A stretch of 64,000 nt of DNA, taken from the NCBI RefSeq assembly GCF_900176365.1, contig NZ_FWXY01000001.1, forward strand, positions 186,001 to 250,000. Direction: 5' to 3'. The first letter of the stretch is position 1; every line of letters begins with the position of its first letter. Position numbers and translations under genes: made by a program. Source of the stretch: Desulfocicer vacuolatum DSM 3385. Its GTDB lineage: Bacteria; Desulfobacterota; Desulfobacteria; Desulfobacterales; Desulfobacteraceae. This document shows, in pieces, positions 6,187 through 28,511 of this stretch. The notes beneath the pieces were generated by a model. It saw only the letters and a program-made list of their open reading frames with translations, made no database searches and had not been told where the DNA came from.

Positions 6187-7761
6187 TTAGAGCTTTTCGG
6201 CAAACTCATTGACCTTACAGGCAAATTCCCGGGCCATGTTGGATGCAATGGTGGTGAAAACCACCCGATCCTTATTGAGTCCCATATTTTCCAGTCGCTG
6301 GCGAATCTCTTCCACTCGCCATCCTGCGTAAATATTGCCCCTTTCAGCCTTGCAGTTTCCTTCATGACAGGCAGCAACCATGACACCGTCAGCCCCTTCC
6401 ACAAGGGCATTCATGATAAAGTCCACATCCACCTTACCGGCACAGGGAACCTTGACCATGCGGAACCCGGCGGGCATTTCATGGCCAAATTGAGCTGCTG
6501 CTTCCCCGGCTTCCAGGGCAGAATTCTTGCAGCAAAAAGCAACAATGGAGGGGGTTGCATCGGCTGCAGAAGCCACGGCTTCTTTCACACCGCTCTTTAA
6601 ATCTGCATCGGTGAACTCGCCCAGCTGAATGGCATCCATGGGACATTCACTGGCACAGATACCGCATCCCTGGCAGGCCGCCGGAGAAATAACCGCAGCT
6701 CCGTCCTGCCAGAAAATGGCACCATGGGGACAACAGCGGTAACAGGTAAGACAAATAACGCACTTGGTGTCATCCACCACGGCAATGTCCTCGGTGAGTG
6801 TGCGAACACCGTCACCGATAAGGGCTTTTACCTGCAGGGCCACATTGGCGGCATCCACATCGTTCTGGGCAACATAGATACCCTCTCTATTGGATTTCAC
6901 CGGAAAACGGTGGACATTGTTGCTGGGCAGAAAACCGTCAACATCCGCATCAATGCCAAGGGTCTGGGCAATGCCAAGATTGTCTGGCCCCACCACAACA
7001 CCTTCTTCAACCACCACATAATCGGGTTCCAGCTCAACATCGGCCCGGACCACAGGATCAGTGATAACGATCTTCACATTTTCCTTGTCCTGTTCAATGG
7101 TGGGCATGGTTTTGGGTTTGAAACAGACCACGCCTTCATTTCTACCCTGGGTAAAAAGTCGTTCCATTCCTTTGGCACCCACTTTTACATTACCCGCATA
7201 GATGTAGGAACGACAATTTTCCAGTTTCTGAATTTCAAGGGCAGACGCCAACACCCTGCCTGTGGCTGTTGGATCACCTTCCTGGCCAAATCCGGACAAA
7301 AAGGCCACGGTGCTGCCGCTGCCGTTGACCAATTTTTCTTTACCGGCATCATCGGCCAGCAGGGCTTCCAGCTGGGTCTGACTGATCACCTTGTCATTAA
7401 GAGCCAGACCATAGGCACTGTTCAGGGGCACACCGGTGTACTGGGGAGCCACCACCACGGCCCCAAAAGTGACCTCACAGGTTTCTTCTCCTTTGCCAAG
7501 GGTGACCCTGAAATCACCGGCCACACCGGCAATGTCCACCAGGGATGTACCGTCCTGGATTTCCACAAGTCCTGCATCCTGCATCTCTTTGCTGCATCCG
7601 GCACCACAGGCACAGGCGGTTTTGTTCCCAATCACCACGGCCTTATAGCCCTGGGCTGCAATCTGGGCTGCGGCAGTAAGACCGGCCTTGCCGGCCCCCA
7701 CCACCAGGACATCTTTATTAATCTGAACGTCTATTGTTTTACTGCTTTTTTCTGCTATCAT
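6187..7761 (-). CDS. HdrA-like flavoprotein fused to ferredoxin and MvhD domains (QmoB-like)
   Basis: This 524-residue protein starts with a Rossmann FAD motif (VVGAGKAG) and a CACGAGC segment. Two [4Fe-4S] motifs follow at about residues 335-395 (CVICLTCYRCCP, CQGCGICASECP). The C-terminus (about 405-524) is an MvhD domain (FCCKNS, VPCAGKVD, ACHEGNC). The order matches QmoB, but the protein is shorter than the roughly 750-residue QmoB of sulfate reducers. It overlaps the next HdrA-like gene by 4 bp and follows metV-metF. It most likely links methylene-tetrahydrofolate reductase to ferredoxin, NAD or the quinone pool rather than serving APS reductase. Confidence 0.85.
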   Translation of the reverse strand: MIAEKSSKTIDVQINKDVLVVGAGKAGLTAAAQIAAQGYKAVVIGNKTACACGAGCSKEMQDAGLVEIQDGTSLVDIAGVAGDFRVTLGKGEETCEVTFGAVVVAPQYTGVPLNSAYGLALNDKVISQTQLEALLADDAGKEKLVNGSGSTVAFLSGFGQEGDPTATGRVLASALEIQKLENCRSYIYAGNVKVGAKGMERLFTQGRNEGVVCFKPKTMPTIEQDKENVKIVITDPVVRADVELEPDYVVVEEGVVVGPDNLGIAQTLGIDADVDGFLPSNNVHRFPVKSNREGIYVAQNDVDAANVALQVKALIGDGVRTLTEDIAVVDDTKCVICLTCYRCCPHGAIFWQDGAAVISPAACQGCGICASECPMDAIQLGEFTDADLKSGVKEAVASAADATPSIVAFCCKNSALEAGEAAAQFGHEMPAGFRMVKVPCAGKVDVDFIMNALVEGADGVMVAACHEGNCKAERGNIYAGWRVEEIRQRLENMGLNKDRVVFTTIASNMAREFACKVNEFAEKL

Positions 7762-8906
7762 TTGCTCCCCCCCAGATAATTCATGGTCGCAAGGGCGACA
7801 TTTCCAGCACCTGCAATGGTGGCGGCAATACTTCCGGGGCCTCCGGCCGTTCCGGCAACAAATACACCTGAATCCCCCGGAACGGCGTCAAGAAAGCCGT
7901 CCTGGTTCACGGGGATATTTAATATTTCAGAAATTTTCGCCGTGTCCATGCCGGGCATGATTCCCACAGAGAGCACCACAAGATCAAATTGTTCCGATGA
8001 GGGAGCGCCCTCGTCTTCGGCCATGTGGCGAAGTTCCAGGCTGTCTCCTTCCAGGGGATAAATATCCACAGGAATGGTTCTGACAAACCTGATTTCTTCT
8101 TTTATCTTTTCATAAAATACCGGGAATTCCTTGCCGCTGTTCTGGATATCAATGTAGAACATGGAAATTTCAGCTTCAGGATCGGCATTCTTTGCCACAC
8201 CTGCCATGCGCATGGCATAGGGACAGCAAACCTCAGAACACCACAGGTTCCCCAAACGTTCATCCCGGGAGCCCACACACTGAATAAAGGCAATGCGTTT
8301 GGGTTTTTCGCCATCTGAAGGACGTACAAGGGAGCCATTTTCCCGAATAATATTTTCAAGATCAAGGCCGGTGATCACATTGTCCCACTTATCATACCCG
8401 TAGGTGCCTTTAAGATTGGGATCAAAGGGGGTATACCCCGTGGCAACCACAACCGCATCAACATCCACTGCACCTTCACTGCCCAGCGTATCAATACTGA
8501 CGGCCCCTTCCGGCGCATCAGCTGCACCGTCGGCAACCACGTACAAAGGTGAATTATGATGGGAAAATCCCTTAAGCACACCCTGGGGAGCCACCTCTTC
8601 CACTGCACTTTTGGCAAGGGAAACACTGAAACCGTCTTTTTTCTCAAGGCCGCATACTTCGGTTCTCAGATGTACATTTATTAAGGGTTCATTCACCACG
8701 TTGGCGAGCATCTCTTCCACACTGCAGGCACCGCATTGCTTGCAGGTGTCTGTGGCCTTGCAGGTAAATCCGATACTGTGTCCACCCAGAAAGCAGCTTT
8801 TTTCCACCAACTCCACATTGATATTCTGCCTGGAAAGTTCCCAGGCAGCAGTGAGACCGGCAATACCGCCACCAATGACCATCACTTTTCCGGTTTTACT
8901 ATTCAA
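7758..8906 (-). CDS. HdrA-like FAD protein (QmoA-like), MTHFR-associated
   Basis: The 382-residue protein has an N-terminal FAD motif (VIGGGIAG) followed by CKATDTCKQCGAC, the HdrA/QmoA-type cysteine cluster. Later it has CVGSRDERLGNLWCSEVCC, a second HdrA signature, and a C-terminal FAD-closing segment (GVFVAGTAGGPGSIAATIA). QmoA is about 410 residues. The start codon lies 23 bp past the end of metF, and the 3' end overlaps the QmoB-like gene by 4 bp, so translation is probably coupled. In acetogens, MetFV occurs with HdrABC-MvhD. This pair looks like the sulfate-reducer version with MvhD fused, so the role is electron transfer to or from MTHFR by inference. Confidence 0.85.
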   Translation of the reverse strand: MNSKTGKVMVIGGGIAGLTAAWELSRQNINVELVEKSCFLGGHSIGFTCKATDTCKQCGACSVEEMLANVVNEPLINVHLRTEVCGLEKKDGFSVSLAKSAVEEVAPQGVLKGFSHHNSPLYVVADGAADAPEGAVSIDTLGSEGAVDVDAVVVATGYTPFDPNLKGTYGYDKWDNVITGLDLENIIRENGSLVRPSDGEKPKRIAFIQCVGSRDERLGNLWCSEVCCPYAMRMAGVAKNADPEAEISMFYIDIQNSGKEFPVFYEKIKEEIRFVRTIPVDIYPLEGDSLELRHMAEDEGAPSSEQFDLVVLSVGIMPGMDTAKISEILNIPVNQDGFLDAVPGDSGVFVAGTAGGPGSIAATIAGAGNVALATMNYLGGSK

Positions 8907-8929
8907 TTTGGAAACTCCTTCTCTTGGGT

Positions 8930-9853
8930 TTAAACTTCAGGCCTTGGCAGGACTCCGGCTCTCTCAGCAATTTCAGGAACCTTATGTTCCCATTCAATGG
9001 CCATGAGATGAACGCCGGCCACACCTTTCATCTCCTTGAACTCTTCAATCTGTTCACAGGCGATTTTAATACCTTCGTCGGCCACGTTTTTCTTGTCAAC
9101 GCCCTGGAGTCGCTTGATCAACTCCTCCGGCACGTCCATGCCGGGCACTTTTTTCTGCATGTACCGCGCCATACCGATACTCTTCATGGGGGTGACACCG
9201 GCAAGAATATGAACCTTGTCTGTCAATCCCATCTCATTGGCCTGGCGAACCCATTCACGCATTTTGGGCATGTTGTAAATACACTGGGTCTGGACATAAT
9301 CGGCTCCGGCGGCAATTTTCTTGGCCAGACGGTGAACCCGCCATTCAAAGGGCTCGGCAAAGGGGTTGGCAGCAGCGCCGATGAACATCTTTGGGGGCTC
9401 ATCAATGTCCGCACCGCCCAGAAATTTTCCTTCATCACGCATTTTTTTCACCATGCTGATCAGCTGCATGGAGTCAATATCAAAGACACCTTTGGCCTGG
9501 GGATGATCCCCAAACGTCTGGTGATCTCCGGACAGGCAAAGCATATTGCGAAGTCCATGGGCATAGGCACCCAGGATATCCGCCTGCATGGCCAAACGGT
9601 TTCTGTCACGGCATACCATCTGAAAATTGGGCTCCACACCCTCTTCCAGACAAATCATGGAGGCGGCCCAGCTGGACATTCTGACCATGGCAGTCTGGTT
9701 ATCGGTGACATTGGCCATGTCCACCATGCCCTTCAAGGGTTTAATTTTTTCACGCAGTGCCTCCACATTGGCACCCCGCGGCGGTCCCACTTCCCCGGTA
9801 AAGGCAAAATGGCCAGCCTCAAGCGTTCTTTCCAGTTTACTTCCTGATTTCAT
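8930..9853 (-). CDS. metF: 5,10-methylenetetrahydrofolate reductase, catalytic subunit MetF
   Basis: I place the start at ATG 9853 (GGGAG ribosome site seven bases upstream), giving 307 residues. An upstream in-frame start at 9925 has no ribosome site. The sequence shows the MTHFR TIM-barrel signatures: FTGEVGPPRGA near the start, NVTDNQTA, LCLSGDHQTFGDHP and the flavin-site QTQCIYN. It interconverts methylene- and methyl-tetrahydrofolate. In a complete-oxidising sulfate reducer it can run in the reverse, acetate-oxidising direction. It sits between metV and the HdrA-like genes, which implies a multi-subunit MetVF-Hdr enzyme. Confidence 0.93.
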   Translation of the reverse strand: MKSGSKLERTLEAGHFAFTGEVGPPRGANVEALREKIKPLKGMVDMANVTDNQTAMVRMSSWAASMICLEEGVEPNFQMVCRDRNRLAMQADILGAYAHGLRNMLCLSGDHQTFGDHPQAKGVFDIDSMQLISMVKKMRDEGKFLGGADIDEPPKMFIGAAANPFAEPFEWRVHRLAKKIAAGADYVQTQCIYNMPKMREWVRQANEMGLTDKVHILAGVTPMKSIGMARYMQKKVPGMDVPEELIKRLQGVDKKNVADEGIKIACEQIEEFKEMKGVAGVHLMAIEWEHKVPEIAERAGVLPRPEV

Positions 9854-10024
9854 ATTTTTTCTCCCTGAATTTATTAAATATGATGGTCCGTTCACGATTA
9901 TTCCCCCATTGTACGGCCCTGCCATGCACCATCAGAACAAATATTCCCGGCAGCATGATATGGCTGTGAAATAAAGGAAATCCCGTCCACGGAATCATCA
10001 AATATGTTTCATCACCGGATCTGT

Positions 10025-10696
10025 CTAACCAAGGGCTTTAACACGCGCTTCGTAGCCTGGCTGAATCACTTTGCGAGGTTTCTGATTACTCCAGTCATTG
10101 GGAGGAGACAGCTTAATGATCTGATCCAGACGTCCCTGGGCCGCCAGGCGTTCATAAATCTGGAACCACGCACAGGGCTGATCAGGATCAATTTCACAGG
10201 ATCCCTGGTTGGTACCGCCGCAGGGACCGTTGAAAAGACCCTTGGCACACATGGTCACAGGGCAGATCCCGCCGGTCATGTCAAGCACACAATTACCGCA
10301 GGCCCGGCATTTTTCCTCGTACCAGCCCACGTCCAGATTCACACCGATAAAGCTGGTGTTCACTGCGGGAAGTACGGGTTTGTCGGGAAAGCGCTGGGCC
10401 AGAAACTGGATGCCTGCACCGCATGCCATGGAAAGAAAGGCATCATACTCACCGGCTTTGGATTCCAGTTCATCCAGAAACTCCATATCACACTGGCGCT
10501 CCAATGTTTCTGCACCAAATTCAACGCCGTCCTTGCCAAATGCCAGATTCAGCTCGGCATTCAAGGTTTCCACTTCCTTGGACCCTCCGGCCAGACATAC
10601 GGCGACACAGGTTCCACAGCCCACGGTGAGAACCTTTTTATAACTTGACACCATATCTTTGATCTCATCAAAGGGTTTTCTCTCTGCTACAATCAT
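10025..10696 (-). CDS. metV: MetV, zinc/Fe-S partner subunit of methylenetetrahydrofolate reductase
   Basis: The 223-residue protein matches the MTHFR C-terminal zinc-binding family. It has GCGTCVAVC near residue 30, a mid-protein CGAGIQFL, and a Cys-rich C-terminal half (CRACGNCVLDMTGGICP, GPCGG, PCAWFQIY). MetV is required for MetF activity in acetogens. The start has AGGAGG seven bases upstream. It is the first gene of the metV-metF-hdrA-qmoB-like operon, and its promoter should lie in 10697-11130. Confidence 0.92.
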   Translation of the reverse strand: MIVAERKPFDEIKDMVSSYKKVLTVGCGTCVAVCLAGGSKEVETLNAELNLAFGKDGVEFGAETLERQCDMEFLDELESKAGEYDAFLSMACGAGIQFLAQRFPDKPVLPAVNTSFIGVNLDVGWYEEKCRACGNCVLDMTGGICPVTMCAKGLFNGPCGGTNQGSCEIDPDQPCAWFQIYERLAAQGRLDQIIKLSPPNDWSNQKPRKVIQPGYEARVKALG

Positions 10697-17416: not shown

Positions 17417-18015
17417 GGATACTCTCCTGTTTACCAATTAACTGACCTGGCGTGTAACGTAATTTTGAATGATGCCAAATTTTTCATATCTTAATCTTAT
17501 TTCAATGGATTTTCAACTCCCTTGCCACCTTATATCTTCTCCATTTATATTGCCCATGCAACCGCATAAAAAACATTGCAGTCCATTTCTACCCCACTAA
17601 GATGGAGATCCCGGTATCTAAAAGGCAAAAGAATCTTTGCAATATAAATCATGCGGTGCAAGATTATCAATGCACTTAATTTAAAGAAAAACAAACGAAA
17701 AGCCCTCAGCAGAGCCCCCCGAGGGGTAACAGGAACCGGCCAATCAAGGGGTTTACAGTTCCGGTCCGGGACCATTGCCCCTTTGGGGCGGCGGTATAAT
17801 ACCATTTTTAATATTTGTTGTGTTCCACAAAAGATGCCCGTTTATATGAAATACGCCACAAATCTGTTGGAGTGTTTCTACTTTTGTTGTGGGCACATCA
17901 ATTTCAAAATAAAATTCGCCGCAGACATCTTATGGTACCCATATTGCATGCTTGGATTAAAAAATATTTTTCCGGCACCACCGGCGGAGTGAATCAATAC
18001 TTTTGGAGGCTATGA
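17417..18015. other. 599-bp intergenic region with an inverted repeat and a B-A repeat pair
   Basis: The region separates a minus-strand gene from the Fe-S operon. A loose inverted repeat at about 17555-17670 has TGCAACCGCAT facing ATGCGGTGCA. A family B unit (17701-17843) is joined to a family A unit (17844-17926). The last 90 bp, including GGAGG at 18005-18009, form the leader of the 18016 gene. Short ORFs inside the repeats are not genes. Confidence 0.6.
17701..17926 (+). repeat. Family B unit joined to a decayed family A unit
   Basis: The B unit has a long hairpin whose arms contain GGAACCGGCCAA and CAGTTCCGGTCCGG, then GGCGGTATAATACCATTT and the tail TTGTTGTGTTCCACAAAAG. It meets the A unit at TTTATATGAAATACGCC, the usual head sequence. 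The second half of the A unit is degraded. Confidence 0.8.
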
Positions 18016-18531
18016 ATGAGTAAATACTATCTGTTCCAGGATGCAAAACAATGTATTGGATGCCGTACCTGCGAAATCCAGTGCAAAACCAATAAAAAAC
18101 TGCCCACCGGTCCCCGGCCATGCCAGATCATCCAGGTGGGCCCCCAGCTCATTGGCGGCCTTCCCAGAACCTCCTATATTTTCATGCCCTGTTTTCATTG
18201 TGAAACCCCCTGGTGCGTGGCTGCCTGCCCCACGGGAGCCATGCAGAAAAGAAGCAAGGACGGCATTGTTTTCATTGATCCTGATCTGTGCGTGGGCTGC
18301 AAAACCTGCGTATCTGCCTGCCCCTGGGGTGCCCCCCAGTGGAACCCGGAAACAGGCAAAGTGGTAAAATGCGACTATTGCATGGACCGCATTGATGAGG
18401 GCCTTCAACCGGCCTGTGTCACCACCTGCACCAGTGGATGCCTTAAATTCGGCAAGGTGGAAGATATGACCCAGATCCGCCGGGAACGACATGCACAACT
18501 GGTGGCTGCCCTTGAAAATTCTGTATCATAA
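18016..18531 (+). CDS. Four-cluster polyferredoxin subunit (HycB/DmsB type)
   Basis: The 171-residue protein has four [4Fe-4S] motifs in the DmsB/HycB arrangement: CIGCRTCEIQC, PCFHCETPWCVAACP, CVGCKTCVSACP, and CDYCMDR...CVTTC at the C-terminus. It has no signal or membrane segment and so is cytoplasmic. GGAGG lies six bases before ATG 18016. It opens a five-gene operon with a GltD-type flavoprotein, a small SH3-like protein, a CBS protein and a NuoG-like Fe-S protein. Its role would be to wire clusters between the flavoprotein and a partner enzyme. Confidence 0.9.
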   Translation: MSKYYLFQDAKQCIGCRTCEIQCKTNKKLPTGPRPCQIIQVGPQLIGGLPRTSYIFMPCFHCETPWCVAACPTGAMQKRSKDGIVFIDPDLCVGCKTCVSACPWGAPQWNPETGKVVKCDYCMDRIDEGLQPACVTTCTSGCLKFGKVEDMTQIRRERHAQLVAALENSVS

Positions 18532-18575
18532 TTCCATGGCATCCCAGGCAATCTTCAATGGAAAAAGGAGTTCAC

Positions 18576-20747
18576 ATGGCTGAAAATCTCTGTCCGGTTC
18601 ATGGCACCATCCTTTATTTATCCCGACAACTGGATTCCGGTGCAATCACTGAACCCAGAACCATAAGGATCGCAGAAGAAATTTTAAAGTTGCTGGAAGA
18701 GATCTCCAACGGTCATGCCGGTACGGAGCATCTCAACGGCGTCAATGCCAGGGTGGCGGAGTTTTTTAAAAACCCGGGTAATCCCCAGGGACTTAAAACC
18801 GGTACATATCTAAGGGATATACTGGAACAACACGGACCGGTGTTTCAAAGCCACATTGACACAGGCAACTGCGCATCCATGGACTGTGTCAGGCTGGCCC
18901 CCTCCCCCTGCCAGATGGCATGCCCGGCCGGCATTGATGTACCCACCTACCTCTCCCTCATTGCCGAGGGCAGGGATGCTGAAGCCATTGAGGTGATCCG
19001 CCATGACAACCCCCTTCCCTGGGTGTGCGGTCTGGTGTGTACCCGCCCCTGTGAAATGATGTGCGTCCGGGCACGCATTGACACCCCGGTGTCCATAAAA
19101 TTTTTAAAGGCCTTTGCCGCAGAACGGGCCATGTCCCACGGCTTGTATACCAATCCCCCCCCCAAGCCCCCCAACGGCAAAAAAGTGTGTGTGATGGGGG
19201 CAGGCCCGGCAGGACTCTCTGCAGCCTATTACCTGGCCCTCATGGGATACGGTGTCAGAATACTGGAAGCCCTTCCCGTACCCGGCGGCATGCTCATGGT
19301 GGGTATTCCCCGGTACCGCCTTCCCCGGGAGATCATTGACCGGGAAGTGGCCATGATCCAAGACCTTGGGGTGGAGATCTGTTACAACACTGTTTTTGGC
19401 AAAGATGTCACCCGGGAATCCCTGGAAAAAGAAGGCTTTGGGGCCTTTTTTCTGGCCATTGGTGCCCATAAATCTTACCAGCTGGGGCTGGATGGAGAAG
19501 AAGAGTACAAAGATAAAGGTGTTGTTGACTCTGTGATGTTCCTTAAAAATGTGGCCCTGGGTCAACGCACCGTCCCCGGGGACCGGGTGGTGGTCATCGG
19601 TGGTGGCAATGTGGCCATTGATGCGGCCCGGACCAGCCTGAGACTGGGGGCCAAAGAGGTGACCATTGCCTATCGAAGAACCCGGTCAGAAATGCCCGCA
19701 GATGTGGAAGAGGTGGAGCATGCAGAAGAAGAAGGCGTCAAATTTGCATTTCTCACCATCCCCACCGCCATTGTGGGTAATGGAGAAAAGGTCACCGGTC
19801 TTCATTGTCTGAGGGGGGAACTTGTTAAAAAAGAGGGCAGTGACCGCCTCTACCCTGTGCCCGTTGAAGGCAGTGATTATGTCATGGAAACAGATGCCGT
19901 CATCAGTGCCATCGGACAATTTGTGGACACCGACGGCATGGATCAATTCCAGGAAGTTCAATGGACCCGCAGGGGAACCATTGAGGTGGCCCGGGCATCC
20001 ATGGAAACCTCCCAGCACGGTGTGTTTGCCGCCGGAGATGCTGTCACCGGTCCTGCCACGGTGATAGAGGCCATTGGCGGCGGGAAACGGGCAGCAGAAG
20101 CCATTGATCGCTATTTCAACGGGATGCCCCAGCCCAGAATTCCCAAGGTACCGGTGCGGTACCGCAGGGAAAAAACCCTGGAGATGCCTGCCAGCACCAA
20201 AATGGTTTTAAAACGACCGGACATGCCCATGCTCAACATTGACCGAAGACGAACCATGTTTCAACAGGCAGAGCTGGGCTACACCGAAAATATGGTCCGG
20301 GAAGAGGCTCGACGCTGTCTGCGTTGTGATATTTGCCTGCGCTGCGGTAAATGTGTGGAGGTGTGCCGGGATAAAATGGGCATTGATGCCCTTAAATTTG
20401 GTTACATGGATTTTGATAATCCCGGTGAAACAGACTTTCGTAAAACCGCAGAAAACTGTATTGCATGCGGTGCCTGCGTGGCCAATTGTCCCAATGACGC
20501 CATCACCATGGAAGATCGAAACGGGGAACGCCTTTTAATGCTCTGCGGCACCGTGATCAACCGCCAGAAACTGGTTCATTGTGAATCCTGCGGGGCCATC
20601 ATGGGACCGGCTAAATACCTGGATTACATCAACAAAAAAACACAAGGTATCAGACCCGTCACCCAGAAAGCTCAATTGTGTAATAATTGCGCAAGGGAGC
20701 AAACTGCGGGTTTCAATGTTGCCACCCACCCTGTGACACCTAAATAA
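18576..20747 (+). CDS. GltD/NfnB-type FAD-NAD(P)H oxidoreductase with Fe-S domains
   Basis: I start at ATG 18576, right after AAAGGAGTTCAC, giving 723 residues. After an N-terminal region of about 95 residues comes the GltD [4Fe-4S] domain (CQMACPAGIDVPTY, CGLVCTRPCEMMC). Next are the FAD motif GAGPAGLSAAYYLA, the NAD(P) motif VIGGGNVAIDAARTS and the closing GDAVTGPATVIEAIGGGKRAA. The C-terminal third adds CLRCDICLRCGKCVEVC, CIACGACVANCP and an unusual CESCGAIMG...CNNCARE zinc-ribbon-like tail. It probably moves electrons between NAD(P)H and ferredoxins, as SfrB/NfnB relatives do; the actual partner is unknown. Confidence 0.88.
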   Translation: MAENLCPVHGTILYLSRQLDSGAITEPRTIRIAEEILKLLEEISNGHAGTEHLNGVNARVAEFFKNPGNPQGLKTGTYLRDILEQHGPVFQSHIDTGNCASMDCVRLAPSPCQMACPAGIDVPTYLSLIAEGRDAEAIEVIRHDNPLPWVCGLVCTRPCEMMCVRARIDTPVSIKFLKAFAAERAMSHGLYTNPPPKPPNGKKVCVMGAGPAGLSAAYYLALMGYGVRILEALPVPGGMLMVGIPRYRLPREIIDREVAMIQDLGVEICYNTVFGKDVTRESLEKEGFGAFFLAIGAHKSYQLGLDGEEEYKDKGVVDSVMFLKNVALGQRTVPGDRVVVIGGGNVAIDAARTSLRLGAKEVTIAYRRTRSEMPADVEEVEHAEEEGVKFAFLTIPTAIVGNGEKVTGLHCLRGELVKKEGSDRLYPVPVEGSDYVMETDAVISAIGQFVDTDGMDQFQEVQWTRRGTIEVARASMETSQHGVFAAGDAVTGPATVIEAIGGGKRAAEAIDRYFNGMPQPRIPKVPVRYRREKTLEMPASTKMVLKRPDMPMLNIDRRRTMFQQAELGYTENMVREEARRCLRCDICLRCGKCVEVCRDKMGIDALKFGYMDFDNPGETDFRKTAENCIACGACVANCPNDAITMEDRNGERLLMLCGTVINRQKLVHCESCGAIMGPAKYLDYINKKTQGIRPVTQKAQLCNNCAREQTAGFNVATHPVTPK

Positions 20748-20758
20748 AAGGAGGAAAC

Positions 20759-20977
20759 ATGCAATTTCGAAGGGGTCAGAAAATAGAAGTATACCAGACG
20801 TCCAAAGATGAGGCATGGGAATCCTACATGGACGACTTCATCGGTTGCCATGGCATCATCACCGATCCAGACACTGCCATCAATGATCCGGACGCACTTA
20901 TTGAGGTAAGCCTCCAGGGCATGGGAACCCACCGCTTACCCCAGGACTGCCTCCGGGCCCTTGAAACACATACATGA
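20759..20977 (+). CDS. 72-residue SH3-like small protein of the Fe-S operon
   Basis: A strong AAAAGGAGGAAAC precedes ATG 20759, 11 bp after the flavoprotein stop. The product reads as a short all-beta protein: a basic start with KIEVYQTS, the acidic DDFIGCHGIITDPDTA, and a LIEVSLQGMGTHRLPQDCL tail. It suggests an SH3-like barrel of the kind found beside redox enzymes. I know no function. The position between the flavoprotein and the CBS gene implies an assembly or regulatory subunit. Confidence 0.75.
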   Translation: MQFRRGQKIEVYQTSKDEAWESYMDDFIGCHGIITDPDTAINDPDALIEVSLQGMGTHRLPQDCLRALETHT

Positions 20978-20989
20978 AAAGGATGATAT

Positions 20990-21439
20990 ATGCTTGTAAA
21001 AGAGTTGTTGAAAAAAGAAAAAAACCCCTTTCACACCATTGGTCAGGAAGAGACTGTGGCAGCCGCTTTGAAACTGATGTCAGGATATAATATTTCCGCC
21101 CTGCTGGTCATGGACGACCGGCGCATTGCCGGTATTTTTACGGAAAGGGACCTGCTCCGCTGCCATGTGATCTTTCCGGAAAAAAACACTGTGGAGATAC
21201 AGGTTCGGGAAGTCATGACCCACAATCTCATTGTGGCAGAACCCGACGATGAAATCAAAGACGCCATGGGCATGATGATCAAGGCCAAAATCCGCCATCT
21301 GCCGGTGATTGAAAATGCTGCAATCAAAGGCATCCTTGCTCTGGAAGATCTTGTCAAAAACCATGTGGGAGCGCTGACCCAGGAACTTCATTACCTCCAG
21401 GACTATGTAACGGATCTCCAGGACGCAGCCCAGGATTAA
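20990..21439 (+). CDS. CBS-pair regulatory protein
   Basis: The 149-residue protein is a tandem CBS domain (Bateman module): the first repeat ends in DDRRIAGIFTERDLLR, the second in KGILALEDLVKNHVG, with VMTHNLIVAEPDDEIKDAM between. A short helix ends the protein. CBS pairs bind adenine nucleotides or NAD, so this one could tune the oxidoreductase to energy or redox charge. It lies 12 bp after the small SH3-like gene and 15 bp before the NuoG-like gene, each with a ribosome site. Confidence 0.9.
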   Translation: MLVKELLKKEKNPFHTIGQEETVAAALKLMSGYNISALLVMDDRRIAGIFTERDLLRCHVIFPEKNTVEIQVREVMTHNLIVAEPDDEIKDAMGMMIKAKIRHLPVIENAAIKGILALEDLVKNHVGALTQELHYLQDYVTDLQDAAQD

Positions 21440-21454
21440 GGAGGAACACATTCA

Positions 21455-22222
21455 ATGGTTGACATTACCATAGATGGACAACCCATAACCGCAGAAAAAG
21501 GCGAAACCCTGATTCAGGTGGCCAAAAGAAACGGAATTCAAATTCCCCATCTGTGCTACCACCCGGCTCTAAAGCCCTCGGGGGCCTGCAAGCTATGCGG
21601 CGTGGAAGTGACCTCCCATTCGGGAAAGGCCGTTGTCATGCTCTCTTGTATTCTCAAGGTAAAACCGGGACTTGAGGTAAAAACCAATACCCCCCTTGTC
21701 CAGAAGGCCCGGACCAAGGCCTTTAACAAATTGCTTCAAATGGCACCGGATGCGGAAAGAATCCGAACCATTGCCCGGGAATTTGATGTGGAGGTTACTC
21801 CCCCCCCGGACGGTTGTATCCAGTGCCGGCTGTGCATCAGGGTATGCAATGACATCGTCAAGGCCAAGGCACTTAAAATGGTATCGGATGAGTCCGGCAA
21901 ACGGGTGGTGGCAGATCCTTCTTTGTGCATCGGTTGCGGTACCTGTGCCAACCTCTGCCCCACCCATGTGATCACGGCCACGGACAAAGATTCCATGCGA
22001 ACCATGGCCATAAAAGATCAGGTGTTTTGCCAGCTTCCCCTGGAACGATGTGAAGGATGCGGTCGACGCTATGCCACCACCCGGTTTCTTCACCACGTGG
22101 AAGATGTCACCATTGAACAGCCCCACGTCAAAGAACACCATAACTATTGCCCCAACTGTGTAAAAATAATGTCAGATAAGGCAATTACCGAACGAACACA
22201 TTTGCCAAAAAGAATCAAATAA
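21455..22222 (+). CDS. NuoG/HoxU-like [2Fe-2S]/[4Fe-4S] protein
   Basis: The 255-residue protein starts with a [2Fe-2S] ferredoxin domain (LCYHPALKPSGACKLCGVEV, later C-I-L-K). It then has two [4Fe-4S] motifs (CIQCRLCIRVCN and CIGCGTCANLCP) and a C-terminal CEGCGRR...CPNC zinc-type pair. This is the N-terminal layout of NuoG and HoxU without the molybdopterin domain. It would be the electron-entry or exit subunit of the complex encoded at 18016-22222. AAGGAGGAACA precedes the start. Its TAA stop is also the first bases of a family A repeat. Confidence 0.9.
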   Translation: MVDITIDGQPITAEKGETLIQVAKRNGIQIPHLCYHPALKPSGACKLCGVEVTSHSGKAVVMLSCILKVKPGLEVKTNTPLVQKARTKAFNKLLQMAPDAERIRTIAREFDVEVTPPPDGCIQCRLCIRVCNDIVKAKALKMVSDESGKRVVADPSLCIGCGTCANLCPTHVITATDKDSMRTMAIKDQVFCQLPLERCEGCGRRYATTRFLHHVEDVTIEQPHVKEHHNYCPNCVKIMSDKAITERTHLPKRIK

Positions 22223-22502
22223 CTGCCACGGGCAGATCGAATGATGATCCGGATCTGCCCACAACGAAAAATGAAACCCTCATAATTCCAGAGTGTTGGG
22301 CGGGATTTTATATAAAACGAGTATGTCCTGTGGAACACAACAAATATAGGGTCGTAGACGCGGAGCCAAATGGTATTATACCGCCGCCCCCCCGATGGGA
22401 AATGGGCCCGGACCGGAACTGTAGACAGCTCAATTGTCCGGTTCCTATTCCCCATCGGGGGGGCGGCTCTTCTGAGGTTGCCTTGGAGGCGACCTTTTCA
22501 TA
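22220..22502 (-). repeat. Family A unit joined to family B unit
   Basis: In this minus orientation the A unit (22220-22316) begins at TAACTGCCACGGGCAG, whose TAA is the stop of the preceding gene. The B unit (about 22318-22502) has arms GGCCCGGACCGGAACTG and CAATTGTCCGGTTCC inside a CCCCCCGATGGG/CCCATCGGGGGG stem. It ends at the head AATATGAAAAGG read on the minus strand. The rest of the gap to 22655 is a short leader. Confidence 0.85.
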
Positions 22503-22654: not shown

Positions 22655-24358
22655 ATGCAAAAAATTGTTTCACGTCTTGTATTTGTGTCAATGCTCATGT
22701 TGTTTGCCGTTGCAAACGCATCCGCCGGCATTGAAGCCTCATTGTCTGCCGACACCTATAGTGCCGGCGATACCATTCAGATCACCGGAACCATTGAACC
22801 TGGAGCAGATCTTTATTTGAGTATTGCATCCAAAGAACGATTTGCCTCCAAAGACACCGACGGTAAAACAGAGGTGAAAAAGTTAGCCAAGGAAGCCAAG
22901 AAATATGGTTACACAGTGGACACCAGCATCCCCACTCTCTACTATATGCTCACCTCAAATCCGGAAAAATTCGGTGCCGTGATTGATAAAAAATTTGGAG
23001 GTCCCTCCTTTTTTACCCAAAAGGGAAAAAGAGGACTTTACAGTACCACCATGTTTAAACTCAAAAAATGGTCTGAACTTGATGAAGAAACCCGGAATAT
23101 GCTGGGCAGCATCAAGGATGAAGCAGAATGGCGTTTTTATAAATATGCCCATGAAAGCAGTTATGGTATCAACACCATCACCAAAGAGAGTACCAAAGTG
23201 GGTAAAGTAACCATTTTCTCCAGAAGTGTTCTGGGAGATTATGGGGCCTCGGATAATTATTGGGACAAAGGAACCAGCATTCAACTGGACAAAGCCACAG
23301 GAAAATTTACCGCGTCCTTTAAAAGCTTTCGCCACACCCCCCCGGACACAGAATTTGAGGTGTTTGCCAATGGACAGCCTGCGGGCAATTTCACCCTGGA
23401 ACCCAAAGGATTCTGGCTCACCAAAGGCGGCCGTTACATGAATCCGCTGTGGATCATCATCGGTGCCATTCTGGTGGGCGCTTACTTCTCCATGATCGGT
23501 GCCGCAGGCGGTATGCTCATGGCTGCCTTCCAGGTGATGGTGGTACAGACAGCAGGTCCCATCGGTATTAATGCGGCCAACGTTCTTCGCCCTTCAAACA
23601 TTGCACTGACCCTGTTTTCCCCCCTGGGTTCTTTTTATCGATTTGCCGTAAAAGAGCGTCGGGTGGCATGGCCTGTGGGGCTATCCTTTGGTGCGGGAAT
23701 TTTCATCGGTTCTGTGTGGCTGGGGAAATATGCCATTGAATACCTTCCCATGAAAACCTATAAAGAATGGCTGGCCATTCTGGTTGTGATCATGGGCTTT
23801 AAAACCCTCCAGGAATTAACCCCCAAAGCCATGGAAAAACGAAAAAACATTAAAGCCATGGTGAAAAAATTCAATGCTGCCGTTGCCAAAGCAAAATCAG
23901 AGGGGACCGCTGCTGAAATGGGTACCATTGAGCCTGTGGCCTCCAGCCTGACCAACTATCGCTTCAAATTCTGGGGAGAAGAGTTCAAAATCAATCCCCT
24001 GCTTTTTGCCATTCTGGGGCTTGGTATCGGTGTTGTTTCCAGAAGTTTTGGTATTGGTGGTGGATTCCTTCTGGTGCCTGCCATGACAAGCCTGGGAGCC
24101 CTTCCCATGTATGTTGCTGTTCCCATCGCCCTTGTGGGAACCTGTTTCAGCAGTATCGGTTCCTTTATCGGATATCTGCTCAACGGGTATCTACCGGACA
24201 TGTGGCTTGCCATCAGTATCATCATCGGTGGATTTGCCGGCGGTATGCTGGGCAGCAGACTTCAGACGCTGTTTTCTGAAATTCAGCTGAAATGGGTTCT
24301 TGCCATCACCCTGTTTTTTCTCTTTTTCAGATTTTTTAAGATTGAAATCTGGATCTAA
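22655..24358 (+). CDS. TauE/SafE-family exporter with large N-terminal exported domain
   Basis: The start is ATG 22655 after AAAGGAG; the longer open frame upstream only reads through repeat DNA. The 567-residue protein begins with a signal-like segment (residues 1-23, ending ANASA-G). An extracytoplasmic domain of about 240 residues, rich in Lys and Tyr, follows. The C-terminal half has about eight helices with the two TauE/SafE repeats (GAAGGMLMAAF, GIGGGFLLVPAM). The family exports sulfite or organosulfonates and related anions; sulfite is a reasonable guess in a sulfate reducer. The exported domain may bind substrate. A terminator follows. Confidence 0.85.
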   Translation: MQKIVSRLVFVSMLMLFAVANASAGIEASLSADTYSAGDTIQITGTIEPGADLYLSIASKERFASKDTDGKTEVKKLAKEAKKYGYTVDTSIPTLYYMLTSNPEKFGAVIDKKFGGPSFFTQKGKRGLYSTTMFKLKKWSELDEETRNMLGSIKDEAEWRFYKYAHESSYGINTITKESTKVGKVTIFSRSVLGDYGASDNYWDKGTSIQLDKATGKFTASFKSFRHTPPDTEFEVFANGQPAGNFTLEPKGFWLTKGGRYMNPLWIIIGAILVGAYFSMIGAAGGMLMAAFQVMVVQTAGPIGINAANVLRPSNIALTLFSPLGSFYRFAVKERRVAWPVGLSFGAGIFIGSVWLGKYAIEYLPMKTYKEWLAILVVIMGFKTLQELTPKAMEKRKNIKAMVKKFNAAVAKAKSEGTAAEMGTIEPVASSLTNYRFKFWGEEFKINPLLFAILGLGIGVVSRSFGIGGGFLLVPAMTSLGALPMYVAVPIALVGTCFSSIGSFIGYLLNGYLPDMWLAISIIIGGFAGGMLGSRLQTLFSEIQLKWVLAITLFFLFFRFFKIEIWI

Positions 24359-24463: not shown

Positions 24464-25045
24464 ATGGATGATATGCTGGACAATGTGTGGTTCGGGATTG
24501 AAGCCGGTATCCAAAAAATTGCCGGGTTTATGGATGCGCTGCTCCTGCCCCTGCGGTTTCTGGGGCCGGAAATGATTATTTTTATTCTGGTTCTTCTGTG
24601 TATAACGCTCTCCCGGTTTTTCAAAAAACACTACAACACCCAACGATATATCCGGCTGAAAAAAAATTTTGACCACTGGTTTGAACTTCGCCAGGAAGCC
24701 ATGAACCATGCAGAAACAGAAAAAGGGCGTGCCATGGCCAAAAACATTGACCAGGCAGAACTCAACCGGGCCTATTATGACTTCTTTTTTGAATCGTTAC
24801 TTAAGAGCCTTATCACCACATGGCTGCCCCTTCTTTGCACCCTGGCATATGTAAATCGAAGTTTTACCCCCGGTGGGCTCATGCAATGGTTTGGCAGGCC
24901 CGAACTTTTCATGATCAATGGTCACTCCATACTTCCCTGGTCAATTCCCTCAATCTTTTGGTTTTTCATTTCAGTGCTGCTTGTTTATGCACTTTTTCCC
25001 ACCATGGCATGGGTGCGCAAAACGATTTTTAATCATGGTGAATAG
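24464..25045 (+). CDS. Integral membrane protein with central charged segment, DUF106/EMC3-like layout
   Basis: This 193-residue protein has one helix at about 33-52, a long charged, probably helical middle (about 58-110) and two or three helices near 115-185. That hairpin-and-coil layout recalls DUF106/EMC3 proteins, which are distant YidC relatives, but I see no decisive signature and offer this only as a resemblance. The weak ribosome site is GGGATATCA. It stands alone between a terminator and the membrane-protein/kinase operon at 25094. Confidence 0.65.
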   Translation: MDDMLDNVWFGIEAGIQKIAGFMDALLLPLRFLGPEMIIFILVLLCITLSRFFKKHYNTQRYIRLKKNFDHWFELRQEAMNHAETEKGRAMAKNIDQAELNRAYYDFFFESLLKSLITTWLPLLCTLAYVNRSFTPGGLMQWFGRPELFMINGHSILPWSIPSIFWFFISVLLVYALFPTMAWVRKTIFNHGE

Positions 25046-25093: not shown

Positions 25094-25603
25094 ATGACGG
25101 GCCAACCATATTTTCAGGAAAAGCCGTTGAACAAAATCCTTCCTTTACAAAAAAGACTGACTAAAAGATCAATAATCATGGCAATGATCTTTATCATTTC
25201 TCCAACCCTGTCCCACGCCACCCAGATGCACAGCGCCAAAGAAGGTATTCTGGTTCATCAGCTGGGACATCTTTTTTTTCTGATCTCCATGGCCATTCTC
25301 ATCCTCACCATCCAGGGTAAAAGACTGCACATGGAACGGGGATGGCGGTTGATACAATACAGTGCTCTGTTTTTTATTTTCTGGAACATGGATGCCATCC
25401 TGGTGCATCTGCTCGATAATCAGACAACCTTTATTTCCACCTCCCTGATCTCCATGACTAACATCCACATAAAAACCCTGGAGCACCATGAAGGGCTGGC
25501 CATCCTCTACTATCTGCTGCGACTGGATCATCTTCTCTGTCTGCCAGCAATGATATTTCTCCACAGAGGACTTTCTCACTTACTGCAGAGGAAAACCCCA
25601 TGA
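25094..25603 (+). CDS. Small membrane protein upstream of and overlapping a sensor kinase
   Basis: The 169-residue product has a basic N-terminus, a hydrophobic segment at about 27-42 that could be a signal peptide ending SHATQ, and three further hydrophobic segments. Its many histidines include HHEGL and LDHLL. The true start may be one of the internal ATGs. It overlaps the kinase start by 4 bp (ATGA), so the two are probably translationally coupled. It may be the membrane sensor partner of that kinase. I recognise no family. Confidence 0.7.
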   Translation: MTGQPYFQEKPLNKILPLQKRLTKRSIIMAMIFIISPTLSHATQMHSAKEGILVHQLGHLFFLISMAILILTIQGKRLHMERGWRLIQYSALFFIFWNMDAILVHLLDNQTTFISTSLISMTNIHIKTLEHHEGLAILYYLLRLDHLLCLPAMIFLHRGLSHLLQRKTP

Positions 25604-27120
25604 TATTTCCCTATATGCCCATTCTGGCCATTGATGTCCTGGGGTCACTGGGGATGATCTGCATTGCGGGTGTTTCCCTTTCCAAAGCCCGCAAATTAAG
25701 GGCAAAGGAACCGGATAATGCCATCTGCCTTTATCTGGTGTGGATCTGCTCCGGTCTTACCATTTTTGCTCTGTCCCGCGCGTTTGGCCACATTTTAAAA
25801 CAGGTTCTCCTGCTCACCTCCCACGGCCATATCTGGTCTGCCATCGGTCCTTACAGCGGCACCATCAACACCGTTTCTTTCATGCTTGTGGGACTTGTGA
25901 CCCTTTTTTTCAACCAGAGCTGGACCATCAACACCAAAATTTTGTCCAGCCGCAGGGCCCTGGAAGAGACCCACTCCCAACTTGTGAGCCTGAACCAGAC
26001 CCTGGAGCAAAAAGTGGTGGAGCGCACTGAAATGCTCACCACCTCGGAACATAAATGCCGACGTATTTTTGAACAATCCCTGGACACCATTCTGGTCACA
26101 GATGATCACTGGCACATCCGGGAAATCAACCCCGCAGGGGTGGCCATGACCGGATATACCAAAGAGGAACTTTTAATGGAAAACATGCCCATGGACCGGT
26201 TATTTGCCTCGGATGAAGACTGGCAGCGAATCAGCCGACTAATCATGGAAAATGAATTTATCCTCAATGAAGAGACCTATTTTAAAGGAGTCCGGGGTAA
26301 CAAACTCTACGTAATCATCACCGGCGGTATTGATTATGGTGCCTTTGGGTGTGCAAAAACATTTCATTTTATCATCAAAAATATCAATGAAAAAAAAGAG
26401 ATGGAAGAGCAGATCGTCCAGGCAGACAAACTGGCAGCCCTGGGAGAACTTTCCGCAGGGGTGGCCCATGAAATCAATAATCCATTGGGAATCATATTGG
26501 GGTACACCCAGCTGATGCTCAAAGCCGAAGCCGCCAACAAAGACAATTTTCCCTACCACGATGATCTTAAAATCATTGAAAAACATGTAAAGAACTGCAA
26601 AACAGTGGTATCAGACATGCTGGCCTTTGCCCGAAAGGATACCCTGGAGCGGGGCATTATCAACATTAACCAGGTGTTGACGGATGTGGTGAATTTTATC
26701 CATAACCACGCTGATTTCAGAAACATCACCATTGAACTGAATCTCTTTGACAATTTCCCCCTCAACATCATGGGCAATGAACAGGAACTCAGACAGGTAA
26801 TTATAAACCTTCTGATAAATGCCTGCCATGCCCTGGACAAAAAAGGAAATATATCTGTCAGCACCCGGAAAAACCGTTCAGATGAGGCTGTAATTGTGGT
26901 AAAAGACAATGGAAAAGGAATCAGCCCGGAAAACATCACCCGGATATTCCATCCGTTCTTCACCACCAAACCTGTAGGCCAGGGAACCGGACTGGGTCTT
27001 TCCGTGAGTTATGGTATTATTAAAAAACACGGTGGCCGTATCCAGGCAGAAAGCGAAAAAAACAAAGGGGCCACATTTACCATTACCGTGCCCCTGCCAC
27101 CGGAAAAAGGAGATTATTAA
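25600..27120 (+). CDS. Membrane PAS sensor histidine kinase of a NtrB/ZraS-like pair
   Basis: The 506-residue kinase has three hydrophobic segments in the first 110 residues, a coiled coil (about 125-150), and a PAS domain (about 150-270). The HisKA domain has the phospho-accepting His in AGVAHEINNPLGIILG. The HATPase domain has NLLINACHAL, DNGKGI and GQGTGLGLS. It overlaps the sigma54-type regulator gene by one base and the small membrane protein gene by four, giving a tight four-gene operon that ends with rlmN. Its signal is unknown. Confidence 0.92.
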   Translation: MIFPYMPILAIDVLGSLGMICIAGVSLSKARKLRAKEPDNAICLYLVWICSGLTIFALSRAFGHILKQVLLLTSHGHIWSAIGPYSGTINTVSFMLVGLVTLFFNQSWTINTKILSSRRALEETHSQLVSLNQTLEQKVVERTEMLTTSEHKCRRIFEQSLDTILVTDDHWHIREINPAGVAMTGYTKEELLMENMPMDRLFASDEDWQRISRLIMENEFILNEETYFKGVRGNKLYVIITGGIDYGAFGCAKTFHFIIKNINEKKEMEEQIVQADKLAALGELSAGVAHEINNPLGIILGYTQLMLKAEAANKDNFPYHDDLKIIEKHVKNCKTVVSDMLAFARKDTLERGIININQVLTDVVNFIHNHADFRNITIELNLFDNFPLNIMGNEQELRQVIINLLINACHALDKKGNISVSTRKNRSDEAVIVVKDNGKGISPENITRIFHPFFTTKPVGQGTGLGLSVSYGIIKKHGGRIQAESEKNKGATFTITVPLPPEKGDY

Positions 27121-28511
27121 TGGCTGCACATATTCTTGTTGTGGATGATGAACAAGATATGACAAGACTGTTAAAGCGTACCCTGGAAATTGAATTTAAC
27201 TGCCATGTCACCATGGCATTTTCCGGTGAAACAGCTGTGAACATTCTTGCCAGGGAATCCTTTGATCTCATGCTGTGTGACATTAAAATGCCGGGCATGG
27301 ACGGTTTTGAACTGCTCCGGCACACCGTGGAGCATTACCCGGACCTCACTGTGCTCATGCTCACCGCCTTTGGCAGCATTGATGTGGCCATTAAAGCCAT
27401 CAAAAGCGGGGCCTATGACTTTGTGTCCAAACCCTTTGAGCAGGACGAAATCCTTTTCCGGGTAAAAAAAGCCCTGGAACGGGGGGGACTCATAAAGGAG
27501 AATAAAAAGCTCCACAGAGAAAAATCCGCCACCTTTGGAAAACTCATTGGAGAGAGCCCGGCCATGCAGGAGGTGTATGATAAAATATCCATGGTGGCCC
27601 AAAGTGATGTCACGGTGCTCATCACCGGTGAATCCGGCACAGGTAAAGATCTCACGGCCCAGTCCATCCACGCCCTGAGTCAACGGAAAAAAAAAAAATT
27701 TATCCCGGTGAACTGCCCCACTGTTCCCGAAGCCATTCTGGAAAGTGAATTATTCGGCTATAAAAAAGGCGCTTTTACCAATGCCATGAGGGATAAGTCA
27801 GGTCTGTTCCAGGAAGCCCATGAAGGCACCATTTTTCTTGATGAAATCGGAGATATCGGCCCCACCATCCAGACCAAGCTGTTGCGGGTACTCCAGGAAA
27901 AAGAAGTTAAACCCTTGGGGGACACCCGGTCCAGAAAAGTGGATGTGCGCATTGTGGCCTCCACCAACCGTAATCTTGCCCGGAAAATAGAGAAAGGCGA
28001 ATTTCGCGAAGATTTTTTCTACCGACTCAGCGTGTTTACCATCACGCTTCCACCGTTAAGGGATCGCATCACAGACATTCCCCCCATTGCCTGTCATCTG
28101 GTGGAAAAACATTGTAAAAAACTCAATAAAACAGCAAAGAAAATAGATCCGGCACTCATGGATCTTCTTTTGAAGCAGCACTGGCAGGGAAATGTCCGGG
28201 AGCTGGAAAATATGTTAATCCAGGGTATTTTACACAGCGATGGAGATACCATCTCCCCGTCCCACATGGATCTGGCCGATCAGCAAAAAACAGTTCAGCC
28301 TCCTTTTCCAGATACAGAAAACCTTTTTAAATTACCTTATAAAGAGGCAAAAGAGCAGTTACTCCAGCAATTTAACCACAATTACATCGGCACCCTTCTC
28401 TCCCTGACAGGGGGCAACGTCACCCAGGCTGCGCGACAATGCGGTCTGGAGCGCCAGGCCCTGCAACAGATAATGAAACGATTTACCATTAAAGCTGATA
28501 CTTACAGATGA
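27120..28511 (+). CDS. NtrC-family sigma54-dependent response regulator with GAFTNA variant
   Basis: The 463-residue protein has a receiver (VVDDEQDM, acceptor Asp in LCDIKMPGMDG), an AAA+ domain with Walker A GESGTGKD and Walker B TIFLDEIGD, and a Fis-type HTH at the C-terminus (NVTQAARQCGLERQALQQ). The loop that contacts sigma54, normally GAFTGA, reads GAFTNA here. The arginine finger region (FREDFFYRLSVF) is normal. It is the cognate partner of the kinase encoded just upstream. Target promoters are not evident in the window. Confidence 0.93.
   Translation: MAAHILVVDDEQDMTRLLKRTLEIEFNCHVTMAFSGETAVNILARESFDLMLCDIKMPGMDGFELLRHTVEHYPDLTVLMLTAFGSIDVAIKAIKSGAYDFVSKPFEQDEILFRVKKALERGGLIKENKKLHREKSATFGKLIGESPAMQEVYDKISMVAQSDVTVLITGESGTGKDLTAQSIHALSQRKKKKFIPVNCPTVPEAILESELFGYKKGAFTNAMRDKSGLFQEAHEGTIFLDEIGDIGPTIQTKLLRVLQEKEVKPLGDTRSRKVDVRIVASTNRNLARKIEKGEFREDFFYRLSVFTITLPPLRDRITDIPPIACHLVEKHCKKLNKTAKKIDPALMDLLLKQHWQGNVRELENMLIQGILHSDGDTISPSHMDLADQQKTVQPPFPDTENLFKLPYKEAKEQLLQQFNHNYIGTLLSLTGGNVTQAARQCGLERQALQQIMKRFTIKADTYR

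Follow-up and report, generated by a model that had tools for sequence, protein, structure and literature searches.

Which enzyme is served by an iron–sulfur and flavin operon that itself holds no catalytic subunit? The question is raised by five genes at positions 18016 to 22222 (+ strand) of a 64,000-nucleotide stretch of Desulfocicer vacuolatum DSM 3385 (contig NZ_FWXY01000001.1, positions 186,001 to 250,000), the whole of which we call the window and which is part of a 440-kb contig in a 5.0-Mb genome. A sequence-only reading had taken the genes for a nucleotide-regulated, electron-confurcating or NAD(P)H-ferredoxin module that stands without a catalytic partner. We suggest, at a probability of roughly 0.7, that they encode the electron-input part, fed by reduced nicotinamide adenine dinucleotide phosphate (NADPH), of a soluble, cytoplasmic PhsAB/PsrAB-type molybdenum (or tungsten) enzyme, that its catalytic subunit is the product of a separate gene, here called c3, and that the enzyme likely reduces a sulfur compound.

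A probable catalytic partner for the operon

Clustering the genes that neighbor the cluster in relatives turned up c3, a gene for a PhsA/PsrA-like molybdopterin oxidoreductase of about 695 amino acids. The loci compared by name are the best 80 of 134 relatives from a scan of species genomes, mostly named members of the Desulfobacterales or uncultured deltaproteobacteria; 18 of the 80 do not enter the linkage count, 6 because they break off 5' of gene 1 and 12 for lack of a gene-1 match. Among the 62 informative loci, 48 have c3 directly 5' of gene 1, 6 have it at another place in the locus and 8 lack it; a module without a catalytic partner is therefore not supported. Seven of the eight genomes concerned hold c3 elsewhere (two of them in part), and the eighth, G058 with 1.9 Mb, has no c3. 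Outside the order there are 14 loci, two of which are cut off at a contig end; c3 lies upstream in the other 12 of 12.

The two parts also occur together. At E<=1e-150, c3 was found in 30 of 30 genomes with gene 3 of the operon and in 3 of 28 without it (58 genomes, the own one included); the Fisher value of 2e-13 ignores kinship, which makes the cases behind both the co-occurrence and the linkage counts non-independent, and some of the 30 copies are contig-end pieces only. The distance from c3 to gene 3 is below 10 kb in 23 of the 30 genomes, four have the genes 15 kb, 17 kb, 82 kb and 2.03 Mb apart, and in three they are on separate contigs. Two subtypes of c3 can be told apart, c3a and c3b, which are 40-46% identical. 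One gene-3-less relative, G027 (contig C1, 1285961-1287523), carries only a shortened c3b, with 522 of 694 residues matched and a frame of 553, which may reflect a joint loss of c3 and gene 3.

D. vacuolatum has its own c3, a solitary and intact gene with an open frame of 699 at contig positions 289133-291208 (- strand), about 82 kb from the operon. The earlier statement that a catalytic subunit is missing thus holds for the operon and the flanks within the window, but not for the genome. The own c3 is 60% identical to the operonic c3 of Desulfamplus and, in a quick tree whose outgroup rows have very long branches, nests among operonic copies in the c3b clade, with a support of 100 at the fork that encloses it. 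Its neighbor genes look unrelated by eye. Unlinked copies are retained in other genomes as well, namely G044 (2.03 Mb apart) and G008 (17 kb apart).

The five genes

All five open reading frames (ORFs) were confirmed where they had been described, in the following order:

18016..18531, + strand: gene 1, 171 amino acids, DmsB/PsrB-type subunit with four [4Fe-4S] clusters (Fer4_11, 5e-27 in Pfam)
18576..20747, + strand: gene 2, 723 amino acids from an ATG with a good ribosome site, or 729 if read from 18558; predicted NuoF/HydB-type docking domain (residues 1-107), GltD/StnC-type domain for flavin adenine dinucleotide (FAD) and NADP(H) (about 104-517), then two [4Fe-4S] clusters and a C4 site
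20759..20977, + strand: gene 3, 72 amino acids, SH3-like barrel by its model; the most diagnostic gene of the cluster
20990..21439, + strand: gene 4, 149 amino acids, CBS-domain pair (CBS, 2e-24 in Pfam); an optional accessory
21455..22222, + strand: gene 5, 255 amino acids, HydA/NuoG-type N-terminal protein with a [2Fe-2S] cluster, two [4Fe-4S] clusters and a C4 site (Fer2_4, 2e-19 in Pfam)

The genes are separated by 11-44 bases, each of the five starts is preceded by a purine-rich, ribosome-site-like sequence (by eye), and the set is one operon. Pfam, NCBIfam and PDB sequence searches, on which we base the naming of domains, agree with the names first given (DmsB-type, GltD/NfnB-like, CBS pair and NuoG/HoxU-type [2Fe-2S] protein); gene 1, for example, matches the PsrB-type chain 2vpw_B of Thermus at 6e-31. 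Conserved cysteines in genes 1, 2 and 5 permit ten [4Fe-4S] clusters (4+4+2), one [2Fe-2S] cluster and two C4 metal sites, in line with the at least nine [4Fe-4S] motifs and single [2Fe-2S] center counted before. Counting only matches that cover >90% of the query without stops, the ligands are kept in 66/66 sequences of gene 1 (16 cysteines), 66-68 of 68 of gene 2 and 55/55 of gene 5 (16 ligands). An NADP(H)-linked iron–sulfur/flavin module, as originally proposed, is what these features support.

Gene 3 was given no family in the Pfam or the NCBIfam/PDB sequence searches, and its alignment has a mean column identity of 76% (n=29 sequences). Its SH3-like nature began as a guess. The AlphaFold2 model, with a predicted local distance difference test (pLDDT) score of 83.5, is a small SH3-like barrel, but the best Foldseek matches, which include FeoA, PetP and a ferredoxin-thioredoxin reductase chain, are all weak, and none reaches E<=0.001.

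The five genes are conserved together to an uneven degree. After 12 of the 80 loci with less than 2.5 kb of downstream sequence had been set aside, gene 5 was present in 51 of 68, but the CBS gene adjoins gene 3 in just 29 of 68, so that the nucleotide regulation once proposed cannot be a general property of the system.

A chimeric flavoprotein

From its sequence and its modeled fold, gene 2 is a chimera of a cluster-less NuoF/HydB docking domain, a GltD-like FAD/NADP(H) domain and a ferredoxin-like tail. Over the whole of their length, residues 1-107 align with the C-terminal NuoF domain from four related loci (hhalign 94.9%, P 4e-8), as against at most 0.5% in controls with the gene 1, gene 5 and c3 families. 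In an independent model of this N-terminal part (pLDDT 83.4), the top structural matches are chains of the NuoF/HydB type along with one [FeFe]-hydrogenase. VIA-align gives Z 15.2 with chain B of 9mqx (root-mean-square deviation 2.3 over 105 residues), 14.4 with StnB and 13.2-13.3 with complex I of Thermus; since Z values of 13-14 can arise by chance among helical bundles, we take the sequence and fold evidence for the docking domain together. Foldseek finds these families too, at E 0.016 or higher, with TM scores up to 0.85 and none at E<=0.001, and is weak by itself. In the alignment, the gene 2 docking domain has none of the cysteines that make up the cluster motif of NuoF.

The arginine pair 367-368, which we take to be the NADP site, is kept in 68/68 sequences. 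Around the proximal cluster, the middle part of gene 2 aligns free of gaps with StnC. Lys170 of StnC corresponds to Lys178 of gene 2 (68/68), where NfnB has Glu, and Arg239 corresponds to Arg248 (68/68). According to excerpts of PMC10482914, this Lys marks the non-bifurcating type as against the Glu of NfnB; the role of Arg239 is described there also. Lys178, the lack of a NuoE/NuoF-type gene in the window and the lack of an FNR-type domain among the listed hits speak against the electron confurcation first assigned to the operon.

A probably soluble molybdoenzyme of the PhsA/PsrA type

All three molybdopterin-oxidoreductase domains are matched by Pfam in the own c3, and the nearest solved relative is the PsrA-type chain 2vpw_A of Thermus, at 6e-108 for c3a and 6e-92 for the own copy. 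The molybdenum-ligand cysteine is kept in 50/50 c3 proteins (40/40 c3a and 10/10 c3b), the own copy included. A histidine after this cysteine is typical of formate dehydrogenases, and c3 has none.

No twin-arginine translocation (TAT) leader was found on c3: residue 3 aligns to residue 38-39 of the 2vpw chain (39 for the own copy), in 32 of 51 c3 genes the in-frame stretch on the 5' side is no longer than 16 codons, too short for such a leader, and a twin-arginine pattern occurs in frame upstream of 3 of 51, none of them leader-like by eye. Nor is there an NrfD anchor gene less than 20 kb from gene 3 on the same contig in any of the 30 genomes, some of whose contigs are short. NrfD genes exist in each of the 30; in D. 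vacuolatum the one closest to gene 3 on its contig is 94 kb away from it and about 9.5 kb from c3, and stands behind a HybA-like gene of another operon. With neither a leader nor a nearby anchor, c3 appears PhsAB-like, lacking subunit C, and presumably cytoplasmic.

We infer from these features that the proteins form one complex, with electrons running from nucleotide to molybdenum. NADPH would reduce the FAD of gene 2, and the electrons would pass along the [4Fe-4S] clusters of gene 2 to gene 5, which would bind the NuoF-like N-terminal domain of that protein in much the way NuoG binds NuoF. From gene 5 they would go through the four clusters of gene 1 to the [4Fe-4S] cluster of c3 and on to its molybdenum-bis-pterin site. 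Gene 3 and, where present, gene 4 could be structural or regulatory subunits. The substrate is probably an inorganic sulfur compound, and NADPH-dependent reduction of a small one, with thiosulfate or polysulfide as the lead candidates, would be the reaction.

Regulation and neighborhood

A promoter-like site and a row of recurrent neighbors frame the operon:

17933..17947, + strand: sigma-54 (-24/-12)-like site, 9 of 10 consensus bases, 83 nucleotides 5' of the gene-1 start
22655..24358, + strand: TauE/SafE-family permease with an N-terminal extension (TauE, 2e-28), recurrent neighbor; ATG at 22655 chosen by eye, ORF open from 22370
24464..25045, + strand: small membrane-type protein of family c11, recurrent neighbor, no Pfam hit above cut-off
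25094..25603, + strand: small His-rich membrane-type protein of family c7, recurrent neighbor, no Pfam hit
25600..27120, + strand: PAS sensor histidine kinase (Pfam), recurrent neighbor
27120..28511, + strand: sigma-54-type response regulator, typed by eye, with homologs as recurrent neighbors

The site at 17933-17947 stands where c3 would otherwise begin, and its score was equaled by 3 of 500 base shuffles of the 400-nucleotide upstream stretch. Across relatives, considering only c3 genes matched over 95% of their length with at least 300 nucleotides upstream (49), a sigma-54-like site of at least 8/10 bases precedes c3 in 39 of 49 loci, as against 89 of 980 base shuffles; where c3 is not directly upstream, 12 of 14 loci reach at least 8/10 on the 5' side of gene 1. 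In a control of 10 loci where c3 immediately precedes gene 1, the 400 nucleotides 5' of gene 1, mostly c3 coding sequence, reach this level in 3, so that single sites are weak evidence. Because the motif is no commoner than chance over the whole window (5 found, 6.4 expected), the case for a promoter rests on position and conservation.

The regulator at 27120-28511, which we presume to be of the sigma-54 type from its GESGTGK and GAFTNA motifs, is the probable activator of the operon, and together with the neighboring sensor kinase it would control the genes. The TauE/SafE permease would move a sulfur anion.

Inverted copies of a dispersed repeat of about 130 bases flank the operon at 17715-17843 and 22315-22462, and another copy was seen by eye beside the displaced c3 (L070:10460-10600). 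The repeat is not specific to the operon: with up to 2 mismatches allowed, its 20-base core is matched 207 times across the genome, and a reversed control has no match. Farther off in the window, at 6190-10696 (- strand), two HdrA-like flavoprotein ORFs, a MetF-like ORF and a MetV-like ORF were noted by eye, which may perhaps encode a methylene-tetrahydrofolate reductase complex.

Weighing the alternatives

Several observations weigh against an NADPH-fed sulfur reductase with c3. The NCBIfam PhsA model, although the nearest curated family, scores 608.6 bits with c3a and 489.7 with c3b, below its cut-off of 694, in a comparison made with the c3a and c3b of relatives; a c3a from outside the order scores 597.4. 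Positions equivalent to His145 and Arg332 of Psr, presumably active-site residues, are Arg and Tyr/Trp in both c3 subtypes (positions counted by hand), and the substrate of c3 may therefore, judging from these residues, differ from that of Psr or Phs. Three gene-3-less genomes (two of them in part) carry c3, which is thus not strictly dependent on gene 3. The displaced c3 of D. vacuolatum is on a long branch (0.75) in the quick tree and has no sigma-54-like site (7/10 bases, a score equaled by 365 of 500 shuffles). Of 6 examined c3 copies that are unlinked, downstream or second ones, just 1 reaches at least 8/10. Together, the missing site and the long branch leave co-regulation with the operon in this genome unsupported. 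Finally, excerpts of PMC9751629 describe PhsA proteins as scarce in thiosulfate disproportionation and doubt that they have a major role.

The alternative that survives best keeps the same complex and differs in direction only: c3 would oxidize its substrate, and gene 2 would make NADPH. The dimethyl sulfoxide (DMSO) reductase family includes substrate-oxidizing enzymes, and the related Stn enzyme was assayed both ways (PMC10482914, in excerpt). Against this, both the closest curated family and the closest solved relative carry the name reductase, and a TauE/SafE-type permease in hosts related to sulfate reducers would fit reduction. We regard the reverse direction as unlikely.

Re-use of the operon in this particular genome must be considered next. 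After the separation from c3, the module might feed another molybdoenzyme or ferredoxin as a stand-alone NADPH:iron–sulfur reductase, as could be suspected from an own c3 that is unlinked, long-branched and devoid of a promoter-like site, and from the further DMSO-reductase-family genes present in the genome. The retention of the own c3 with an intact molybdenum-ligand cysteine and the persistence of unlinked c3 in G044 and G008 speak against such a change of partner, which we hold to be improbable.

Bifurcation of the Nfn, Stn or Bfu kind, in which NADPH oxidation would reduce the molybdoenzyme and ferredoxin at once, draws on the NfnB/StnC-like nature of gene 2 and on variant clusters in relatives. 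A NuoE-NuoF pair adjoins gene 1 in 4 of 96 loci, L106, L123, L140 (14987-18091) and L201 (12994-16336). A reading of the ORFs of L140 and L201 shows a HydA-type gene next after the pair. Such parts are similar to the Bfu type as excerpts of PMC9304861 describe it, and the variant loci are possibly a bifurcating version of the same molybdoenzyme. For D. vacuolatum we think bifurcation improbable, since no NuoE/NuoF match at E<=1e-20 was found either in the window or in the region around the own c3, no FNR-type (NfnA) domain appears among the Pfam hits listed for genes 1-5, the FAD-proximal residue is the Lys of the non-bifurcating StnC, and the gene 2 docking domain lacks the cluster-motif cysteines of NuoF. 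Nfn-type confurcation within the window was rejected for want of a NuoE/NuoF match and for the same Lys in place of Glu.

The remaining candidates are set aside. A partner of the aldehyde oxidoreductase type had been suspected from 9mqx, and the upstream gene proved to be PhsA/PsrA-like. A formate dehydrogenase or hydrogenase module does not agree with the recurrent families of the 96 loci, which are c3, TauE, the kinase/regulator and small membrane-type proteins; no catalytic gene of either kind recurs, as the sequence-only reading had expected, and apart from one antisense ORF no other cluster among the 25 listed for the neighbors exceeds 8 loci. The commonest new neighbor 'family' (49 loci) is not accepted as a gene, its listed member being antisense over gene 1. 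On the whole, the observation first made at this locus is confirmed and its interpretation partly supported.

Relation to known systems

By the features tested, the proposed NADPH-fed c3 system belongs to none of Nfn, Stn and Bfu, nor is it a complete PhsABC. With PhsAB(C) and PsrABC it shares a catalytic subunit of the complex iron–sulfur molybdoenzyme type with a 4Fe-4S motif and a cysteine as molybdenum ligand (c3), followed by a B subunit with four [4Fe-4S] clusters (gene 1). In contrast to those enzymes it has no TAT leader on c3 and no NrfD/PsrC anchor near gene 3, an NADP(H) flavoprotein module taking their place, and c3 falls under the PhsA cut-off with two Psr active-site positions changed.

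Stn (StnABC of Sporomusa, PMC10482914) and the NfnABC of Caldicellulosiruptor and Thermococcus share the GltD/NfnB-type FAD-NADP(H) domain and NuoG-type [2Fe-2S]/[4Fe-4S] pieces, and the proximal Lys is as in StnC. According to excerpts of the same paper, StnC is a single chain with a catalytically inactive FdhF-like domain, and StnAB are its bifurcating partners. Here, in contrast, each part has a gene of its own, the molybdenum-ligand cysteine of the molybdopterin protein is retained, a NuoF-type docking domain appears fused to the GltD part in gene 2, and the window has no StnAB-type genes. An NfnB/StnC-type subunit is present as gene 2. A partner unit that would react with NAD(H) was not found: the Pfam hits listed for the five genes show no FNR-type domain as in NfnA, and the window and the own c3 region show no NuoE/NuoF-type genes as in StnAB. 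The same two regions yielded no BfuBC core, which excerpts of PMC9304861 give as a flavin-mononucleotide-binding NuoF-type and a NuoE-type protein. By analogy, the module may act like the arm of an Stn-type enzyme that reacts with NADPH, here feeding a PhsAB-type molybdoenzyme.

The solved electron-bifurcating tungsten aldehyde oxidoreductase 9mqx matches three parts: its chain A resembles gene 5 (4e-35 across residues 2-236), its chain E gene 1 (2e-14) and the docking domain of its chain B the N-terminus of gene 2. It differs in that the window has no NuoF-type gene and that a PhsA/PsrA-like enzyme replaces the tungsten aldehyde oxidoreductase.

In excerpts of openly licensed papers, PMC3543383, PMC7117923, PMC8780430 and PMC12998232 as well as those cited next, we found no description of the five-gene set. 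PhsAB without subunit C is noted, functionally unanalyzed, in PMC9751629 (in excerpt), which uses the name for such pairs of Desulfobacterota, as does PMC4046663 (in excerpt) for a pair in Desulfotignum phosphitoxidans; phsAB mutants of Desulfovibrio alaskensis had a mild fitness loss on thiosulfate (PMC4215793, in excerpt). The genes in all three were named PhsAB by the papers, and it is by name that c3 and gene 1 are likened to them here.

Distribution and meaning

Gene 3 was found in 30 of the 58 genomes compared, D. vacuolatum among them, in 109 of 241 from a class sample with at least 90% completeness, and in 23 of 394 of a phylum sample, 14 of these outside the order; it had no match in the plasmid collection. 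Beside cluster copies at three loci (L121:17632-18126, L099 and L107) lies a regulator that we presume to be ModE-like, and beside one (L048:18695-19780) a molybdopterin-binding, MoeA-like gene.

More tentatively, and with less than even odds in our judgment, the cluster could represent a widespread cytosolic, NADPH-linked PhsAB-type reductase of the Desulfobacterota, in which the chimeric flavoprotein serves both c3a and c3b and a NuoE-NuoF-HydA-type set joins in some lineages, so that NADPH, NADH, ferredoxin and the sulfur substrate may meet in one complex.

If the proposed partnership with c3 is true, it would explain how the anchor-less, soluble enzymes among the kin of thiosulfate reductase obtain their electrons. 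The cluster would offer them a concrete donor, NADPH by way of a defined chain of subunits, and gene 2 would be a new way to combine a GltD flavoprotein with docking parts of the complex I/hydrogenase type.

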